Below, in pieces: positions 12,048 through 64,000 of a stretch of 64,000 nucleotides of DNA; position 1 is the stretch's first letter, and the number at the start of each line of letters is the position of its first letter. The notes under the pieces are model-generated. The model did no database searches. It was not told the origin of the DNA and was given only the letters and a program-made list of their open reading frames with translations. A program made the position numbers and the translations under genes. Source of the DNA: Actinomycetes bacterium (lineage in GTDB: Bacteria > Actinomycetota > Acidimicrobiia > Acidimicrobiales > GCA-2861595); assembly GCA_023264975.1 (NCBI GenBank), contig JAHFUS010000006.1:19923-83922 (forward strand), in the 5' to 3' direction.

Positions 12048-12167
12048 GAACCGCGGCTTCGCTGCCGTCTCGTCCGCCGCGTGGCGATCAGCGGGGCGCT
12101 GACCGGTCGGCGGCGGACAGGGGCCTGACGCCCTTGCTTGCCGTTGTGCGTGCGGAGGTGCAACACT

Positions 12168-12209
12168 GTGAGCACTGTGACCGCGACCCGAATCCTCGTA
12201 GCCACCTAA
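12168..12209 (+). CDS. ilvBNC leader peptide (Ile-Leu-Val code)
   Basis: A 13-codon ORF, GTG AGC ACT GTG ACC ... ACC TAA, reads [14 protein letters not shown] consensus GGAGG (12154-12158) stands 9 bases before the GTG. The consecutive Ile-Leu-Val codons (12192-12200) are the three end products of the pathway that the downstream genes serve. The short ORF, the control codons just before the stop, and the hairpin plus terminator immediately after are the classic design of a ribosome-mediated transcription attenuator. The ORF is too short to be a functional protein. Leaders of this sort are known for ilvB in other actinobacteria. Confidence 0.88.
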
Positions 12210-12263
12210 CGCACGCCGTCCCTCTGCGCGTGCGTCACGACCTCCCAGCCGGGAGGTCGTTTT
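12209..12263 (+). promoter_or_regulatory. ilvB attenuator: stop-proximal hairpin and intrinsic terminator
   Basis: Hairpin 1, ACGCACGC (12209-12216) with GCGTGCGT (12228-12235), begins on the last base of the leader stop codon. Two bases later comes a terminator: CGACCTCCC (12238-12246), loop AGCC, GGGAGGTCG (12251-12259), followed by TTTT. Stalling at the Ile/Leu/Val codons should alter pairing upstream and prevent the terminator. The leader Shine-Dalgarno GGAGGT can pair with ACCTCC of the terminator arm, one possible competing structure. The ilvB start lies 50 bp downstream. Confidence 0.85.
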
Positions 12264-21406: not shown

Positions 21407-22291
21407 TCAGCGCTTGGCGCGGATGAAGCCGTCGGCCTCGGCCGCCTCGCCGTCGACATAGCAGCGGTCGGGCCGGGTCCGGTCGTAGAAGGCCATGCCC
21501 GGCAGGTGGTAGAGCATGCTCGAGAGCTTGGCCTTCACCGGGTGCGTCGCGGGCGTGCCGGTGCCGAGGGGCTCCACCCAGGGCTGCTGGCGGGCCTTGC
21601 GGACCCGGCGCCTGGCCGGTGCGGCGGCGCCGGTGTCCTGTGTAACCACCTCGAGGGGCGCCGCCTTCCTGACCGCCTTGACGGCCTTCTTGGGGGCCTT
21701 CTTCACCGCCTTGTTGACCACCGGTGTGGCCGGCGCGGGCGGATCCATGTGGGGTACCGGGGGAACTGGCGGCACGTCGGCGGCCGGCGGTGAGGCCCAC
21801 GGGTCGGCCCCCGGCTCCGCCGGCTGGGGGCCGGCCGGTCGTGCAGGAGGCGCCGGCTCAGCCGGGGCCGGGGCCTGGGCAGCAGCGGGCTCGGCGGAAA
21901 CGGGGCGGGGGAGCGGCGGCGCGGCCGCCCGCTCGGGCAGGGGTGCCGGACGCATGGACGGCGGAGTTGACGACGCCGCCGGCGGGGGCGCAGGCGGCGC
22001 TGCGGCAGCCGGGGTCGGCGGGGGTGTGACGGGACGGGTGCCCGTCGGCGCCGGCGCAGGGGGAGGCGGCGGCGGGGAGGTGCTCGGAGCGGCCGGGAAC
22101 GGCGCCTCCGACCGCATGCGCCCGGTGACCGTCTGGGCGGCAGGCTCGAGGGTGACCGGCTCGGGTTGGAGGGGCGGCCACGTCGGTTCCCCGCGGGTCG
22201 AGCGGCGGGACCGGACCACCTTGATCACGGTGACGAGCACGCCCGCCAGAAGGCCGATCCGTAGCCCCAGGCGGAAGGATCGACGCACCAT
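21407..22291 (-). CDS. Proline/alanine-rich protein with sunset-like C-terminal domain
   Basis: 294 residues. An N-terminal membrane anchor (RLGLRIGLLAGVLVTVIKVV, about 6-25) is followed by about 180 residues of Pro/Ala-rich low complexity, then a Lys-rich stretch (NKAVKKAPKKAVKAVRKAA). The compact C-terminal motif HPVKAKLSSMLYHLPGMAFYDRT, split by its length, is followed by RPDRCYVDGEAAEADGFIRAKR. That ending resembles the small actinobacterial sunset domain (pattern HPVKxxxSSxxYHxPGxxxYDRTxPxxCF). Its role is unknown; the architecture suggests a tethered surface or cell-wall-associated protein. It converges on serA and is divergent from leuA. Confidence 0.75.
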   Translation of the reverse strand: MVRRSFRLGLRIGLLAGVLVTVIKVVRSRRSTRGEPTWPPLQPEPVTLEPAAQTVTGRMRSEAPFPAAPSTSPPPPPPAPAPTGTRPVTPPPTPAAAAPPAPPPAASSTPPSMRPAPLPERAAAPPLPRPVSAEPAAAQAPAPAEPAPPARPAGPQPAEPGADPWASPPAADVPPVPPVPHMDPPAPATPVVNKAVKKAPKKAVKAVRKAAPLEVVTQDTGAAAPARRRVRKARQQPWVEPLGTGTPATHPVKAKLSSMLYHLPGMAFYDRTRPDRCYVDGEAAEADGFIRAKR

Positions 22292-22344
22292 GGGGCCAAC
22301 GGTAGCTTGACCGGCGCCGAGTGGTCTGCGACCATGAGGTCGTC

Positions 22345-22383
22345 ATGACTGCCCGTACCCGCTGCGTTCTCCTGCTTACGTAG
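22345..22383 (+). CDS. leuA leader peptide (Leu-Leu-Leu code)
   Basis: A 12-codon ORF from ATG 22345 to TAG reads MTARTRCVLLLT. Three successive leucine codons (CTC CTG CTT, 22369-22377), preceded by Val, stand just before the stop. A GAGG (22335-22338) precedes the ATG. The hairpin and terminator that follow, and the downstream leucine-pathway gene, make this a textbook leucine attenuator leader. Confidence 0.88.
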   Translation: MTARTRCVLLLT

Positions 22384-22444
22384 AGCGAGCCTCCCTCTCC
22401 GGGGCTCGCTTCGCCTCCTGCGCCTTCGGGCCAGGAGGTTTTTT
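22384..22444 (+). promoter_or_regulatory. leuA attenuator: stop-proximal hairpin and intrinsic terminator
   Basis: AGCGAGCC (22384-22391) pairs with GGCTCGCT (22403-22410) directly after the leader stop. Three bases on, CCTCCTG (22414-22420) pairs with CAGGAGG (22432-22438), with further pairing inside, followed by six T (22439-22444). The order and spacing match the ilvB and leuB leaders in this window. leuA starts 44 bp further on. Confidence 0.87.
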
Positions 22445-22487
22445 GTTTCCCCGATTCCAGCTGATCCACCGCCGAAAGGAACCTCCG

Positions 22488-24041
22488 ATGTCCGAGCGCC
22501 TGATCATCTTCGACACCACGTTGCGCGACGGCGAGCAGTCGCCCGGCATCTCCCTCGACGTGGCCGAGAAGCTAGAGATCGCCGAGCAGCTCGCGCGCCT
22601 CGGTGTCGACTACATCGAGGCCGGGTTCCCCGTCGCCAGCCAGGGGGACTTCGAGGCGGTGGAAGCCATCGCCAAGACGGTGCGGGGGCCGGTGATCGCG
22701 GGTCTGTCCCGCACCAACCTGGCCGACGTCGACCGCTGCTGGGACGCCGTGCGCCACGCCGACCGGTCGCGCATCCACGTGTTCGTCTCCACCAGCCCCA
22801 ACCACATGGAGCACATGCTGAAGATGACGCCGGCCCAGGTGCTGGCCGAGACGAGGTCCGGGGTGGCCCGGGCCCGAGAGCACACCGACGACGTGGAGTT
22901 CAGCCCCCAGGACGCCACCCGCACGCCGCTCGACTTCATGATGGAGGTGCTGCAGGCGGCGGTCGACGCCGGCGCCACCACGCTGAACATCCCCGACACC
23001 GTCGGCTACGGCATCCCGTGGGACTTCGGCGCCCTCATCCAGTACGTCCGCCGCAACATCGGTGGCGACTACATCACGTCCACCCACTGCCACAACGACC
23101 TGGGACTGGCCACCGCCAACTCCCTGGCCGGTGTGCAGGCCGGAGCCCGCCAGGTCGAGGTCTGCGTGAACGGGCTGGGGGAACGGGCCGGCAATGCCGC
23201 CCTGGAGGAGGTCGTCATGGCGGTGCGCATCCGCGCCGACCAGTTCCCCGGCATCGAAGTCGGCGTGCGCACCGAGGAGCTGGCCCGCACCAGCCGCCTG
23301 GTGAGCCGCCTCACCGGCTACCCGGTGCAGTTCAACAAGGCGGTCGTCGGCCGCAATGCCTTCGTGCACGAGTCGGGCATCCACCAACACGGTGTGCTGG
23401 CCAACTCGTCCACCTACGAGATCATCGACGCCTCGTCGGTGGGCCAGCAGGGCAGCCAGATCGTTCTGGGCAAGCACTCCGGCCGCCACGCCTTCAGCGA
23501 CACGCTGGAGAAGATGGGCCTGCACGTCCAGGGCGACGCCCTCAACGCCGCCTTCGCCCGCTTCAAGGAGCTCGCCGACCGCAAGGTGCAGCTCACCGAG
23601 GCCGACCTCGAGGCCATCGTGGCCGAGGAGATCGGCGGGGTGGGGGCCGAGCCGGCCTTCACCCTGGAGTCGCTGGAGGTCACCGGCGGCACGGTCGGCG
23701 TCCCCCGGGCCCGGGTCGTCCTCATCCGCGACGGCGAGAAGACCGAGGCGTCGGCCGACGGTGACGGCATGATCGACGCTGCCTGCCAGGCCATCAAGGC
23801 GGCTACCGGCATCGACGCCCGCCTCACCGACTTCAACGTGTCATCGGTGACCGGCGGCGTCGACGCCCTGGGCGACGTGATCGTCCAGCTCGACGCCGAC
23901 GGCGTGAAGGTGTCGGGCCGGGGCGTGTCCACCGACGTCGTGGAGGCCTCGGCCCGGGCCTTCCTCAACGCCACCAACAAGGTGGTGCGGGTGCGGGCCC
24001 GCACCGAGGCACGCGCCCGCATCGACGAGGTCACGCCGTAG
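22488..24041 (+). CDS. leuA: 2-isopropylmalate synthase
   Basis: Condenses 2-ketoisovalerate with acetyl-CoA, the committed step to leucine. 517 residues from ATG 22488, with AAAGGA 7 bases upstream. The HMGL-like TIM barrel shows [15 protein letters not shown] (Arg/Asp at about 9-12), the metal-binding [14 protein letters not shown] (about 203-216), and [32 protein letters not shown] follows in the linker. The C-terminal LeuA dimer domain (about 380-510) is the leucine feedback site in the family. This is the short LeuA type, unlike the roughly 600-640-residue form of many actinobacteria. It is transcribed alone behind its attenuator. Confidence 0.95.
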
Positions 24042-24105: not shown

Positions 24106-25251
24106 CTAGCGGACGACGTACGCGGTGAGCTGCTGGACGCCGAAGTCCCGGCAGTAGGCGGTTGACGGGTTCCAGATGTCGAGGCGGCGACCCTTGATGG
24201 CGCCGCCGGTGTCCATGGCCCGCTTGACGCCGAGGCCGCCCACGAAGATCTCGGTGCCGAGAGGGACGGCCCGGGGGTCGACCGCCACGATGTCCTTGGC
24301 GACCGGTGCGCCACTGGCCGTGATGCCCTTGAGGGCGTAGCAGGTGACGCCGAAGTTGCCGATGGCCTCGCCACCGGTGGCGAGCCAGACACCGTCGCCC
24401 GACTGGGTGGCCTCGAGGGCTACCACAGGGGCGTTGGTGGCGCCGGGCAGGGCGGTTGACGGGGCGGGTGCGGAGCCGAACGCGGCCACGCTGCCGTCGT
24501 TGGCCGCCACCCAGTAGCCGGCGCCGTCGGCCGCGGTGGCGATGTCGACGAACGGGCCACGGCGGTCGACCGGCGACCCGGCGAACGCGGCGTCGCCGAA
24601 GGCGAAGACGCCGCCGTCACGGGCCAGGAGCCGGTAGCCATTGCCCGACGGGGTGGAAGAGATGCCCACGACGGGCCCGTTGAGGGCGGTGCCGCCGGCC
24701 GAGCCGAGGAACGTGGCGTCGCCGAAGGCGAAGACGCCACCGTCCTCGGCCGCCAGCCAGTAGCCCTTGCCGGTGGGCGTGGGGGCGATGCCGACGAGCG
24801 AGGCATTCAGGCGCAGGTCGCCGAGGGAGCCGGCGTAGGCGGCGTCGCCGAAGGCGAACACGCCCCCGTCGTGGCCGACCAGCCAGTACCCCAGCCCGGA
24901 GGCGGTGGCGGCGATGTCGACGATGGGCTGGCGCAGAGGAGCGGGGGCGGTGCCGTAGAACGCGGCGTCACCGAACGAGTACACACCGCCGTCAGACGCG
25001 GCGAGCCAGTACCCCTTGCCGGACGCGCTTCGGGCCATGCCGGTGACCGGACGACCGGCGGCGCCGCCGAAATTGGCGGCGGCGCCGAGGGTGACGACCT
25101 GGCCGGTGGCGTTGTCCACAGCCCGGACGGGGCCGTTGGACGCCATCGGGAAGGCGAGCAGACCTATCAGGCCGACGAAGCCCGTACGTCTGAGCTTGAC
25201 GAAACGTCGAGGCCGGATTCGGGAATGGAGACGGGAACAACGGACGGGCAC
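24106..25251 (-). CDS. Secreted protein with GYWLAxxDGGVFxFGDA repeats and C-terminal 3D domain
   Basis: GTG 25251 is the start: GGAAGG lies 9 bases upstream and it opens a signal peptide (RRTGFVGLIGLLAFPMASNG, then a cleavable region around PVRA). The mature protein has about five repeats of roughly 46 residues of the form SGxGYWLAAxDGGVFAFGDAAFxGS (about residues 60-270), probably a beta-propeller-like array. The C-terminal 3D domain (about 310-381) contains AVDPRAVPLGTEIFVGG, AMDTGGAIKGRRLDIW and the three-Asp pattern of MltA/Rpf-associated enzymes. In relatives that domain acts on peptidoglycan. The combination suggests a wall-remodelling exoenzyme, inferred from domains only. The 246 bp upstream hold no recognised gene. 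Confidence 0.85.
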   Translation of the reverse strand: MPVRCSRLHSRIRPRRFVKLRRTGFVGLIGLLAFPMASNGPVRAVDNATGQVVTLGAAANFGGAAGRPVTGMARSASGKGYWLAASDGGVYSFGDAAFYGTAPAPLRQPIVDIAATASGLGYWLVGHDGGVFAFGDAAYAGSLGDLRLNASLVGIAPTPTGKGYWLAAEDGGVFAFGDATFLGSAGGTALNGPVVGISSTPSGNGYRLLARDGGVFAFGDAAFAGSPVDRRGPFVDIATAADGAGYWVAANDGSVAAFGSAPAPSTALPGATNAPVVALEATQSGDGVWLATGGEAIGNFGVTCYALKGITASGAPVAKDIVAVDPRAVPLGTEIFVGGLGVKRAMDTGGAIKGRRLDIWNPSTAYCRDFGVQQLTAYVVR

Positions 25252-25497
25252 AGGGTGGTCCTTCCTTGTCAGCTCCGTCCGGCGCCCCACGCACGCGACA
25301 AAGGTGGTGGTGGGGTTGGGACGAGGCACCGGTGGGCCCTCCGCCGCGCGGTTCCGCCTGCGGCTGAGGGGGCACCTGGCACGTTCCGCCGCCAGGCACG
25401 CATGTGCTGTGTCGGAGATCACACTAGTGGAACTCGGTGACAAAGGGCCAAACCGGGCCGGTGGTCGCCGGCCCGTCCAGCCGGTAGACAGGGGCCC

Positions 25498-25770
25498 ATG
25501 GCCCCGCCCGAGCGTTCCCCCCAGGATCTGGATGTGGCTGAGGCGGAGCGGTTGCGCCGGCTCCATGTGCGGCTCCGGAAGGCGTCCCAGGATCTGGAAG
25601 GGTTCACGGTGCCCAGGCGGATGAAGGGCCGGTGGGACAATGCCCCTGTTCCCGACGAGGCCGTGAAGGCGACGGGCGCCGAGCTGGCGGCGGCCTACGG
25701 CGCCCTGTGGTCGGCCTACCGGGAGTTGCTCGGATGGACCGGCGCAGGTTCAGGCGACGAGGGGGACTGA
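25498..25770 (+). CDS. Small charged protein of unknown function
   Basis: 90 residues from ATG 25498. The composition is mostly helical and charged: an N-terminal segment DLDVAEAERLRRLHVRLRKASQDLEGF, then GRWDNAPVPDEAVKATGAEL, and a C-terminal AAAYGALWSAYRELLGW. Codon use is strongly GC-biased at third positions, as in neighbouring genes, which supports it being real. No membrane segment or Cys pair. No family recognised. It precedes the rhomboid protease gene on the same strand by 50 bp and could be co-transcribed. Confidence 0.55.
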   Translation: MAPPERSPQDLDVAEAERLRRLHVRLRKASQDLEGFTVPRRMKGRWDNAPVPDEAVKATGAELAAAYGALWSAYRELLGWTGAGSGDEGD

Positions 25771-26672: not shown

Positions 26673-27650
26673 TCAGCCCGCTTCCGCCTGGCGGAAGGTG
26701 CGGCGGTAGGCCTGGGGTGACGTGGCGACGGCGCGCCGGAAATAGGTGCGAAGGTTGGCGGCGGTGCCCATGCCGCAGCGGTAGGCGACCAGCTCGATCG
26801 AGTCGTCGGTGGTCTCGAGGAGGCGCGAGGCGAGCAGCACCCTCTGGCTGAGCAGCCACTGGTGCGGCGTGGTGCCGGTGACGGCGCGGAAGCGGCGGGC
26901 GAAGTGGCGGGGGCTCATGTGCGCGCGCTCAGCCAGGTCGTCGACGCCGAGCGGCTGGTCGAGATGCTCGAGCATCCAACCGAGGGTCGTGCCGAGCGGA
27001 TCGTCGCCGGCGCTGGGGGCGACCGGCGCCTCGACGAACTGGGCCTGGCCGCCGTCGCGGTGGGCCGGCACCACCATGCGCCGGGCGACGGCGTTGGCCA
27101 CCTCGGCGCCATGGTCGAGCCGAACGATGTGCAGGCACAGGTCGATGCCGGCCGCCGTGCCAGCGGACGTCATGACGTCTCCCTCGTCCACGTAGAGCAC
27201 CTTCGGGTCGACCTCGATCTCGGGGTGCCGCTTGGCCAGCAGGTCGGCGTACATCCAGTGCGTCGTCGCCCGCCGCCCATCGAGCAGGCCGGTGGCGGCC
27301 AGGACGAATGCGCCCGAGCACACCGACACGAGACGGGCGCCTCGCTTGTGGGCGGTGCGCAGCGCCTCGATGAGGTCGGCCGGCACTTCCATGTCGCCGC
27401 GGGCACCCCAGGCCGGGATGATGACCGTGTCGGCCCGCCGCACCTCCTCCAACCCGTACGGCGTGTCGATGGTGAAGCCCACGGACGAGCGGGTCGGCCC
27501 GGGCGTGGAGGCGCACACGAGGAACCGGTACCAGGGGTCGATCAGCTCCGACCGGTCGATGCCGAAGACCTCGCATCCAACGGCCAGTTCGAACGGTGCG
27601 ACACCGTCGGCGATGACGGCGGCGACGGTGTGGCGGCGGCGTCGGGCCAT
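26673..27650 (-). CDS. GlxA-type transcriptional regulator (DJ-1/PfpI domain plus AraC HTH)
   Basis: 325 residues. The N-terminal DJ-1/PfpI-like domain (about 8-190) includes ADGVAPFELAVGCEVFG and the nucleophile-elbow SVCSGAFVLAATGLLDGRRATTHW. The cysteine sits in VCSG, but in this regulator group it usually binds a ligand rather than catalyses. The C-terminal AraC/XylS pair of helix-turn-helices (about 220-318) shows LDQPLGVDDLAERAHMSPRHF, TGTTPHQWLLSQRVLLASRLL and GMGTAANLRTYFRRAVATSP. Ligand and targets cannot be told from context; the gene stands between the convergent rhomboid gene and an unrelated locus. Confidence 0.9.
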   Translation of the reverse strand: MARRRRHTVAAVIADGVAPFELAVGCEVFGIDRSELIDPWYRFLVCASTPGPTRSSVGFTIDTPYGLEEVRRADTVIIPAWGARGDMEVPADLIEALRTAHKRGARLVSVCSGAFVLAATGLLDGRRATTHWMYADLLAKRHPEIEVDPKVLYVDEGDVMTSAGTAAGIDLCLHIVRLDHGAEVANAVARRMVVPAHRDGGQAQFVEAPVAPSAGDDPLGTTLGWMLEHLDQPLGVDDLAERAHMSPRHFARRFRAVTGTTPHQWLLSQRVLLASRLLETTDDSIELVAYRCGMGTAANLRTYFRRAVATSPQAYRRTFRQAEAG

Positions 27651-27720
27651 GGCAGGATTCTAGCGAAAGTTGTCGTTCCTGCCAATGGTCATAGCCGCGG
27701 GAAGGCGGGACGATCGGGAC

Positions 27721-28283
27721 ATGGATGCTCCCCAGCTCACCCGGGTCGACGGTGTCGAGGTCGACTGTGTCGAGGTCGACGGTATCGAGGTCGACGGTAT
27801 CGAGGTCGACGGTATCGAGGTCGACGGTATCGAGGTCGACGGTATCGAGGTCGACGGTATCGAGGTCGACGGTAAGTTCCCCGGCAGCCTCCGTGCGGCC
27901 GCTACCGGGGACCACACCGACGCGGCCGCCGTGGCCCGGAGGGAGGCGTGGCAGCTGCCGGTGCTGCGGCAAGGCCGCCTCAGCCGCAGTCTGCCGGAGA
28001 CGTGGGAGGGCGTCCACCTCCGCCTCCGAGCCGCCCTGTGGGAGGTGGCCGCCAGCGCTGACGTCCCGTGCCGCCAGGCGCCTCCGTCGATGCGGTGGCC
28101 CGGCTCCTCGTCGGCTACGGCGCCATCATCCCGCCGGCCGGCGACGGCGTCCGGGCGCTTGCTGCCATCGCCGAGGCGGGCTGCTCAGGTCGCGAGACCA
28201 GCGGCGGCCCGGATGTGGCCGAAGCCGCCCGCCTCGGCGAACGCCTGTCCGGCTACCTCGCATTGCGGGCCCGCTTCGGTTGA
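27721..28283 (+). pseudogene. Frameshifted gene with N-terminal VDGIE pentapeptide repeats
   Basis: An ATG ORF begins at 27721 (MDAPQLTRVDGVEVD...), reads eight VDG(I/V/C)E-type pentapeptides encoded by the tandem repeat, and continues with strong GC3 bias to about 28065 (...LRAALWEVAASADV). From about 28068 the coding signature moves to another frame (PPGASVDAVARLLVGYGAIIPPAG ... ARFG) ending at 28283. The first frame runs on without sense. This looks like one about 187-residue gene with a single-base shift near 28065, or a sequencing error there. Function not recognised. Its 3' end overlaps the antisense gene at 28185-29063 by about 100 bp. Confidence 0.45.
27751..27870 (+). repeat. 15-bp tandem repeat, eight units
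   Basis: Unit GGTATCGAGGTCGAC. Two variant units (27751-27780, GGTGTCG.. and TGTGTCG..) are followed by six identical ones (27781-27870). A period of 15 keeps the reading frame and encodes repeated Val-Asp-Gly-Ile-Glu. Each unit contains the palindrome GTCGAC. Identity of the six units implies recent slippage expansion. Confidence 0.95.
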
Positions 28284-29781: not shown

Positions 29782-31191
29782 TCAGTTCAGCTCCTGAGGC
29801 GTGGCGAAGTGGCCGGCCACCGCGGTGGCGGCGGCGACGGCGGGGGACACGAGATGGGTGCGGCCTCCGGGGCCCTGGCGACCCTCGAAGTTGCGGTTCG
29901 ACGTGGATGCGCACCGCTCGCCGGGCGCCAGCTTGTCGGGGTTCATGGCCAGGCACATGGAGCAACCGGCTTCCCTCCATTCGAAGCCGGCCGCACGGAA
30001 GATGCGGTCGAGACCCTCGGCTTCCGCCTCCGTCTTCACCAGCGCCGAGCCGGGGACGACCAGGGCGCGCACACCGTCGCGCACGTGGTGGCCGTCGAGC
30101 ACGGCCGCCGCGGCCCGAAGGTCCTCGATGCGGGCGTTGGTGCACGAGCCGATGAACACGGTGTCGACCGCGATGTCACGCACGGCGATGCCGGCGGCCA
30201 GGCCCTGGTAGGCGAGGGCACGTCGGGCCGCGTCGCGCTCGGCCGGGTCCGCTATGGCCTCGGGGTCAGGCACGTTGCCGTCGATAGGCGCGACCTGCGA
30301 CGGGTTGGTGCCCCATGACACGTGGGGCACGAGGGTGGTGGCATTGAGCTCCACCCCCTTGTCGAACGAGGCGTCGTCGTCGGTGGCCAGTGAGCGCCAC
30401 ACGTCGAGTGCCTCCTCCCACGCCTTGCCTTTCGGCGCGTGGGCCCGCCCTTCCAGGTAGGCGAAGGTGGTGTCGTCGGGCGCCACCAGGCCGGCCCGGG
30501 CGCCGCCCTCGATGCTCATGTTGCACACCGTCATGCGACCCTCCATCGACAACGAGCGGATGGCCGATCCCCGGTACTCGATGACCGAGCCCATGCCGCC
30601 GCCGGTGCCGATTCGGCCGATGACGGCGAGGATCATGTCCTTCGCTGTGACGCCCGGCGGGAGCTCGCCGTCGACCGTGACCGACATCGTGCCTGGCCGG
30701 CGTTGGGGCAGTGTCTGGGTGGCGAGCACGTGCTCGACCTCGCTGGTGCCGATGCCGATGGCCAGCGCCCCGACGGCCCCGTGGGTCGACGTGTGACTGT
30801 CGCCGCACACGATCGTCATCCCCGGCTGGGTGAGGCCCAGCTCGGGGCCGATGACGTGGACGATGCCCTGGTTGCGGTGCCCCATCGGGTAGAGCGGGAT
30901 GCCGAACTCGTCGCAGTTGGCGCCCAGCACCTCCATCTGCTTCTTGGAGATCGGGTCGTCGACGACCATGGCGCCGCCGGCGTCGAGGGTGGTGGGGACG
31001 TTGTGGTCCATCGTTGCCAGGGTGAGGTCGGGCCGGCGCACCGGGCGCCGGGCCATGCGCAACCCGTCGAAGGCCTGCGGGGACGTGACCTCGTGCACGA
31101 GATGGAGGTCGATGTAGAGCAGGTCGGGCTCACCCTCGGCCGACCGCACCACATGGCGGTCCCACACCTTCTCGCTCAGCGTCCGTCCCAT
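29782..31191 (-). CDS. leuC: 3-isopropylmalate dehydratase, large subunit
   Basis: Aconitase-family catalytic subunit (469 residues) carrying a [4Fe-4S] cluster. Cluster cysteines are in [16 protein letters not shown] (about 347) and [15 protein letters not shown] (about 407 and 410). Other family motifs are [20 protein letters not shown] (about 130-149) and [19 protein letters not shown]. It is divergent from the IclR-type gene at 31246 across 54 bp holding a palindromic operator-like site. Unlike the other Ile/Leu/Val operons here, it has no leader peptide. Confidence 0.97.
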
Positions 31192-35148: not shown

Positions 35149-35213
35149 GGGGGGAGGCTAGTGCCGGAAGTGGCTAGCGCCTACGGGCGGCTACCCGGTA
35201 CAGTGGCATTGCC

Positions 35214-35246
35214 ATGACCGCCACCTCCGTAGCCGTCATTCCGTAG
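35214..35246 (+). CDS. leuB-ilvE-cimA leader peptide (Val-Ala-Val-Ile code)
   Basis: A 10-codon ORF, ATG 35214 to TAG 35246, reads MTATSVAVIP. Val (GTA), Ala, Val (GTC) and Ile (ATT) codons stand right before the Pro and stop. No good Shine-Dalgarno is visible, so the start may be leaderless or weak. The identical downstream layout (hairpin on the stop codon, then terminator) to the ilvB and leuA leaders is the main support. The absence of Leu codons before leuB is notable. Confidence 0.8.
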   Translation: MTATSVAVIP

Positions 35247-35301
35247 CGCACACCGTTCCCGGTGTGCGCTGTTCGACCGTCCACGCAGTGGGCGGTTTTT
35301 T
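35245..35301 (+). promoter_or_regulatory. leuB attenuator: stop-proximal hairpin and intrinsic terminator
   Basis: A perfect 10-bp hairpin AGCGCACACC (35245-35254) / GGTGTGCGCT (35261-35270) starts within the leader TAG. Six bases on, CCGTCCAC (35277-35284) pairs with GTGGGCGG (35288-35295, one G-U pair) around GCA, followed by six T (35296-35301). leuB begins 20 bp later with its own AAGGAG. Confidence 0.86.
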
Positions 35302-35321
35302 CTTTCCAAGGAGCACGAGAC

Positions 35322-63306: not shown

Positions 63307-64000
63307 TCAAGCGGCGATTGTTCGGTGGCCCCAGGCGGTGTGCTCGTTGTAGAGGGTGTCGTGGCGTAGGCAGCCGTGGAGGATGCCGACGAGGCGGTTG
63401 GCGAGGGCTCGCAGGGCGCGTTGGTGGGTGTCGCCTGCGGAGCGGTGTTGGTCGTAGAACGCCCGCGCTCCGGGGCTGGTGTTGATGGCGGCGAAGGCCC
63501 ACATCTGGCAGGCGTCAGCGAGCCGCTTGTTGCGGGCGTAGCGGGCAAGGACGACGCGGCTGCGGCCTGATGCCTTGGTGATCGGTGACGTGCCGGCGTA
63601 GTTCTTGCGACACTTGGCATCGGAATAGCGGTTCGGGTCATCCCCGAACTCGCCGAGCACCCGGGCGCCGAGTGTCATCCCCAGTCCTGGCAGGGATCGG
63701 ATGACCTTGGCGGCCGGGTGCTGCTCAAAACGGTCGGCCAGTTCGAGTTCGAGCCCGGCGATCTGGGTGGTCAACTCTGCGGCGACGGCGACGAGGGCCC
63801 GGGCAACCGAGCCCATCGACTCCGACACGAGGTCGGGCGCGCTGAGCTGGTCGGAACGCAACGCCGCTTGGATCTCGCCGGTGAATCGGCCTGGGTTTGA
63901 CGGAGGCTCGTTCGGTTGGTTTTGCCGTCCGGCTCGTCGCCGTCTGGCCCCGCGATTGTGGCACGGCGGGCGGCCGGTGTCAGTTGCCGCTGAGGAGCTC
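63307..64000 (-). CDS. IS110-family transposase, C-terminal part (runs off window)
   Basis: The stop is at 63307 and the frame stays open to the window edge. The Transposase_20 C-terminal domain is clear: RSLPGLGMTLGARVLGEFGD, RYSDAKCRKNYAGTSPITKA, SGRSRVVLARYARNKRLADA and LANRLVGILHGCLRHDTLY, with the conserved Ser in AGTSP used by this family. The N-terminal RuvC-like DEDD domain lies outside. IS110 elements usually lack long inverted repeats, so the end is placed only by the break in the glycosyltransferase gene. Confidence 0.9.
   Translation of the reverse strand, partial: SSSAATDTGRPPCHNRGARRRRAGRQNQPNEPPSNPGRFTGEIQAALRSDQLSAPDLVSESMGSVARALVAVAAELTTQIAGLELELADRFEQHPAAKVIRSLPGLGMTLGARVLGEFGDDPNRYSDAKCRKNYAGTSPITKASGRSRVVLARYARNKRLADACQMWAFAAINTSPGARAFYDQHRSAGDTHQRALRALANRLVGILHGCLRHDTLYNEHTAWGHRTIAA

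Follow-up and report, generated by a model that had tools for sequence, protein, structure and literature searches.

Organization of the leuA leader

In the window, the whole 64-kb stretch of actinobacterial DNA that was analyzed, a leuA gene is preceded by a promoter-like site, a short open reading frame (ORF), and two adjacent hairpins, the second of which ends in a run of T. The features of the locus are as follows:

22307–22312, plus strand: −35-like site TTGACC, 5′ of the leader ORF, where TTGAC(G) is conserved
22330–22335, plus strand: −10-like site GACCAT, separated from the −35-like site by a 17-nt spacer
22345–22383, plus strand: leader ORF of 12 codons, MTARTRCVLLLT followed by the stop (ATG at 22345, TAG at 22381–22383)
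22369–22377, plus strand: control codons CTC CTG CTT, the third being the rare CTT
22384–22410, plus strand: hairpin A, the proposed antiterminator, whose first base in the predicted fold directly follows the stop
22413–22444, plus strand: intrinsic terminator T, with the predicted stem 22413–22424/22429–22439
22474–22480, plus strand: leuA ribosome-binding site GAAAGGA, recognized from the sequence
22488–24041, plus strand: leuA, encoding a 2-isopropylmalate synthase of the TIGR00973 type (642.6 bits; cut-off 598.7)

The initial annotation had described a leader ORF with three successive Leu codons, an 8-bp hairpin abutting its stop, and a terminator with six T. All of these parts are present. 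The arms of hairpin A (22384–22393 and 22401–22410) form 8 Watson-Crick pairs, or 10 pairs with a U·G. The terminator begins two bases 3′ of hairpin A, and its T run consists of exactly six T (T22439–T22444). The segment 22345–22446 has a folding energy of −44.3 kcal/mol (z = −3.6), which was equaled by none of 200 shuffled sequences. A search of Rfam 15 at both gathering and E-value thresholds yielded nothing credible at the leader; the best sub-threshold match was to anti-hemB (22.3 bits versus the 49.5 required). The gene directly 5′ of the leader (21407–22291) is encoded on the opposite strand, as is the gene 3′ of leuA (24106–25566). The orientation of the latter indicates that leuA is monocistronic and stands alone behind its leader, as had been proposed.

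The ATG of the leader ORF lies 9 nt 3′ of the −10-like site. A −35/−10 pair followed by an in-frame start 4–10 nt past the −10 was found in 43 of 58 leuA leaders; a distance of 9 nt is the most frequent among them (20/43) and also the most frequent in each of the three leader families (leuA, ilvB, and leuB) described below. Because its start lies so close to the −10-like site, the transcript from which the leuA leader ORF is translated is probably leaderless.

We also considered a LeuA protein extended from an in-frame TTG at 22443 that lies behind an AGGAGG sequence. This candidate was rejected, as the frame is closed by a stop in the related locus L003. The frame between this TTG and leuA (22443–22487) is open in the window and in L002, and the AGGAGG belongs to the 3′ arm of the terminator. 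Two other features of the window were recorded: a match to the actinobacterial small RNA Ms_AS-4 of Rfam at 63613–63694 (83.7 bits) and, at about 27660–27920, a tandem repeat that keeps the reading frame (VDLDTVDLDT.../DGIEVDGIEV...), close to the start of the minus-strand gene 26673–27650.

Conservation of the leader and its sisters in the window

Among 148 genomes of the order, 63 yielded a LeuA of the TIGR00973 type. The relatives identified through LeuA consist largely of MAGs with the labels Acidimicrobiales, Acidimicrobiia, or Actinomycetes; they also include the cultured Ferrithrix thermotolerans DSM 19514, which carries the leader at locus L156. The DNA upstream of the order's leuA loci was read, 50 leaders were aligned (alignment A1), and a covariance model of the leader, designated R1, was built from them. 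R1 matches the leader at 61 of the 62 leuA loci of the order, 50 of which match by construction because they were used to build the model; L042/L160 is the only locus in the order sample that lacks the leader. When named loci are counted, a set that overlaps the 62 in part, R1 matches at 76 of 80.

Analysis of the 50 aligned leaders revealed that 96.7% of stem cells pair and that 13 of 18 stem pairs have changed on both sides (8/9 in hairpin A and 5/9 in the terminator stem). Double-change cells number 60, compared with 13 in shuffles; none of 500 shuffles reached any of the covariation measures, and sliding the stem partners destroyed the signal. Both stems thus covary among related genomes, an outcome on which the initial annotation had staked its attenuator. 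Conservation in the leader is confined to the Leu run, the stop, and the hairpin next to it. Leader peptides of the relatives keep only LLL(T) directly before the stop, with no conservation of the residues that precede the Leu run, and hairpin A begins 0–1 nt after the stop in 56 of 58 leuA leaders. CTT serves as the third Leu codon in 44 of the 50 leaders; it accounts for 3.0% of the Leu codons of nine genes in the window and for 9.9% of those of 139 leuA genes.

These results bear on whether the two hairpins are simply a strong double terminator that shields leuA from upstream transcription, with an ORF that is incidental. Tandem hairpins followed by a T run are efficient terminators whatever their context, but the leader has a promoter-like site of its own 9 nt 5′ of the ORF, the gene directly upstream is transcribed from the opposite strand, and the Leu codons, the position of the stop, and CTT are conserved across the order. 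We consider such a shield extremely unlikely. The leuA leader is real and conserved, and is probably a regulator of an ordinary kind.

The leader extends beyond one enzyme type and beyond the order. Members of the f7 family, which belongs to the same order, have the long LeuA (TIGR00970) yet carry the same leader (L073–L076); the leader has therefore been retained, or acquired anew, across a switch of LeuA enzyme type. Its presence above a different LeuA suggests that the regulatory switch follows the pathway step instead of the gene, as it seems to do here. In a phylum-wide sample of 199 genomes, 36 contained R1 matches, which stood upstream of either type of LeuA, of leuS-like genes, and of ilvB. 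Long TIGR00970-like LeuA is preceded by the leader at L073–L076, L228, L233, L234, L237, L239–L241, L244, L245, and L252. In other actinobacterial classes, leaders of the same build stand before leuS-like genes, identified by eye from N-terminal sequence, at L229, L232, and L242.

Independently of R1, a mechanical scan searched both strands of the 64-kb window for a short ORF, its stop, an abutting hairpin, a second hairpin, and a T-rich tail. The scan returned exactly three sites, the leuA, ilvB, and leuB leaders, and none in six Markov-1 random sequences; it found no such leader before ilvD (about 10413) or leuC (29800–31191, minus strand). The two sister attenuators, which lie within 12162–12262 and 35200–35305, are as follows:

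12177–12260, plus strand: attenuator before ilvB (12314)-ilvN-ilvC, with leader 12177–12209 (or from GTG at 12168), hairpin 12210–12234, and terminator 12237–12260 plus T tail; R1 score, 20.7 bits
35214–35297, plus strand: attenuator before leuB (35322)-ilvE-cimA, with leader MTATSVAVIP and stop at 35214–35246, hairpin 35247–35268, and terminator 35275–35297 plus T tail; R1 score, 22.5 bits

R1 matches both sister leaders weakly, and an own-genome search with R1 missed them; a match of that search on contig C108 (19 bits) was judged not to be a leader. Both leaders are kept in many relatives, and the 5′ and 3′ arms of hairpin A (A5:A3) and of the terminator (T5:T3) covary in each of the leuA, ilvB, and leuB families. 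At all three operons of the window, the control codons match the operon's products: Ile-Leu-Val, with one Leu among them, before ilvBNC; Leu-Leu-Leu before leuA; and V-A-V-I, that is, Val/Ile control codons, before leuB-ilvE-cimA. The product of cimA, citramalate synthase, leads to a precursor of isoleucine, and Val/Ile codons would therefore fit the latter operon. The sister leaders have a conserved GTA, which is the most frequent codon at fixed positions in both families and accounts for 0.8% of Val codons in window genes. The use of rare control codons would account for the conservation of both CTT in the leuA leader and GTA in its sisters. The candidate explanation that CTT is kept as a mimic of the anti-Shine-Dalgarno (SD) sequence is weakened by the conservation of GTA.

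The initial annotation also held that leucine supply would set only LeuA. That statement was too strong, because two sister devices are encoded in the same 64-kb window; the leuA leader is one of three matched attenuators, and leucine should weigh on ilvBNC as well.

Hairpin A as the proposed antiterminator

The arrangement of these parts suggests that the leader controls leuA by ribosome-mediated transcription attenuation, a reading to which we assign a probability of about 0.8 and which, as anatomy deduced from sequence, is well supported. According to this model, the leader would be translated while it is being transcribed. When Leu-tRNA is plentiful, the ribosome would reach the stop and cover about 10 nt of the 5′ arm of hairpin A, which would allow the terminator to form and transcription to end near 22444. 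When Leu-tRNA is scarce, the ribosome would stall within CTC-CTG-CTT with its leading edge extending only to about 22381–22387; hairpin A would then form and hinder the terminator flush beside it, and RNA polymerase would read into leuA. The leading edge of a ribosome lies about 15 nt from its P-site. Computed on this basis, the leading edge falls at 22381, 22384, or 22387 with the first, second, or third Leu codon in the A-site, leaving hairpin A largely free, and at about 22393 with the ribosome at the stop, covering the whole 5′ arm. These positions are the geometry of an antiterminator, and hairpin A, judged by its position, is likely to be one.

We searched for a mutually exclusive antiterminator pairing using masked and unmasked energies, mutual information, and matched-versus-swapped duplexes, and none was found. 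The matched-versus-swapped tests detected covariation within A and within T only. Similarly, mutual information across all column pairs gave strong signals for the two stems and disclosed no third covarying helix. Pairing of the A 3′ arm with the T 5′ arm reaches about −3 kcal/mol, compared with −17 for hairpin A, and partition-function calculations under three ribosome positions revealed that this pairing is not conserved as an antiterminator. The Leu run had no matched excess with the T 3′ arm, the arms of A, or the SD; a P value of 0.05 for its pairing with the T 3′ arm in one parse became 0.81 in another, and that signal is thus not robust.

These calculations also speak to a classical 2:3 antiterminator, in which the 3′ arm of A would be freed when the ribosome masks the 5′ arm and would pair with the 5′ arm of the terminator. 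Although GGGGC can pair with GCCUC in the window and its closest relatives (−6.8 kcal/mol), pairing exceeds 50% with the A 5′ arm masked in just 9 of 50 leaders, and matched A3′:T5′ pairs are no better than swapped ones. Moreover, the pairing requires a ribosome at the stop; because this is the leucine-rich state, the response would have the wrong sign. This arrangement is very unlikely.

Hairpin A and the terminator are no more than 5 nt apart in every one of the 58 leuA leaders that were parsed with a permitted gap of up to 8 nt, and their extended forms are flush or overlapping in 32 of the 58. In the window, the extended hairpins could overlap by 2 nt at the base of T, an overlap that is not conserved in the family. 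It is possible that A hinders T through such a small overlap or through steric crowding. Closure of the last 2–3 pairs of a terminator stem has been reported to be indispensable, with repression of the terminator by ribosomes close to the stem (PMC4824070); these findings render crowding by hairpin A plausible without proving it. A more general proposal would be that branched-chain amino acid (BCAA) attenuators in several actinobacterial classes form a class that operates without competing base pairs. In such a class, the stop-abutting, terminator-flush hairpin would be melted by the terminating ribosome, remain intact under a stalled one, and act sterically. We regard this generalization as rather doubtful.

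Relation to known leader elements

In leu/trp-type attenuators of Escherichia coli, the control codons, the stop, and the terminator follow in order. The leuA leader has the same order of parts, and hairpin A, the first after its stop, occupies the position of the 2:3 hairpin; unlike in E. coli, no segment shared by A and T was detected by covariation.

Closer counterparts are the ilvB1/ilvBNC leader attenuators of Mycobacterium tuberculosis and Corynebacterium glutamicum, to which the ilvB-II motif also belongs (PMC10272879). They resemble the present leaders in combining a short BCAA leader peptide, a hairpin beside a terminator (an antiterminator there and a proposed one here), and a downstream BCAA gene, and differ from the leuA leader, in which the gene is leuA and the control codons are Leu only. 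In M. tuberculosis, induction of ilvB1 is lost when its control codons, LVVI, are replaced by Ala codons, and the ilvB1 model has the same antiterminator geometry as that proposed for hairpin A (PMC13236596). The M. tuberculosis ilvB1 control codons include GUA (PMC13236596, PMC11857589, PMC10272879) and those of C. glutamicum ilvBNC are CUU and GUA (PMC11857589), which recalls CTT in the leuA leaders and GTA in the ilvB and leuB leaders. The C. glutamicum ilvBNC leader peptide starts one nucleotide from the transcript start (PMC13236596, PMC11857589, PMC10272879). At their junction, its two hairpins, antiterminator and terminator, have just three bases (GCC) in common (PMC11857589), whereas the hairpins described here are mostly flush or 1–5 nt apart. 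Together with the conservation of LLL(T) and the covariation of both stems, these tested relatives (PMC13236596, PMC11857589) support the proposal that leuA has an attenuator that relies on Leu codons. The leuS attenuators of Streptomyces (PMC1262725) likewise combine a Leu-codon leader with a terminator, and R1 matches leuS leaders in other classes; they differ in the gene controlled and have been described with a classical antiterminator.

In most Actinobacteria, leuA is preceded by the LEU element (Seliverstov 2005, PMC1262725), a pseudoknot in which the Leu run and the leuA SD form the base stem; other attenuator parts were missing in that set (PMC1262725). The present leader also lies upstream of leuA and encodes a Leu-run peptide, and its Leu run reads CCUCCUU in many relatives. 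It might be a LEU element that exerts translational control, in which the Leu run mimics an anti-SD sequence and pairs with the ribosome-binding site of leuA. In other Actinobacteria, the LEU elements that precede the long LeuA do resemble it in their Leu run and in a CGGCGAG-like helix start, and their Leu run:SD pairing is stronger for matched than for swapped partners (−11.5 versus −10.5; P = 0.05, n = 11). The same pairing is weak here (−6.0 matched versus −6.3 kcal/mol swapped; P = 0.81), and only the two nested hairpins covary, with no third helix and no pseudoknot found. In addition, the leuA leader has a terminator, and R1 does not match LEU loci at E values up to 1; where genomes of other classes carry the LEU element, their leuA leader differs and R1 finds no match. 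Identity with the LEU element is therefore very unlikely, and we retain the transcription attenuator as the preferred reading. A common origin of the two leaders is possible. The LEU elements L069 and L071 (CTCCTTAGCTGCCGCGGCGAG) and the leader L004 (CTCCTTACCTGACGGCGAG) are alike in their 5′ half.

Among the papers searched, no earlier description of leuA attenuation in the Acidimicrobiales lineage was found. Our analysis points to control of leuA by transcription attenuation in an Acidimicrobiales-like lineage of Actinomycetota; the better-studied members of Actinomycetota carry a different, unexplained device, the LEU element. It also provides more than 100 leaders of the leuA, ilvB, and leuB families for a problem noted in 2005, the existence of actinobacterial leader peptides that lack some of the components of an attenuator.
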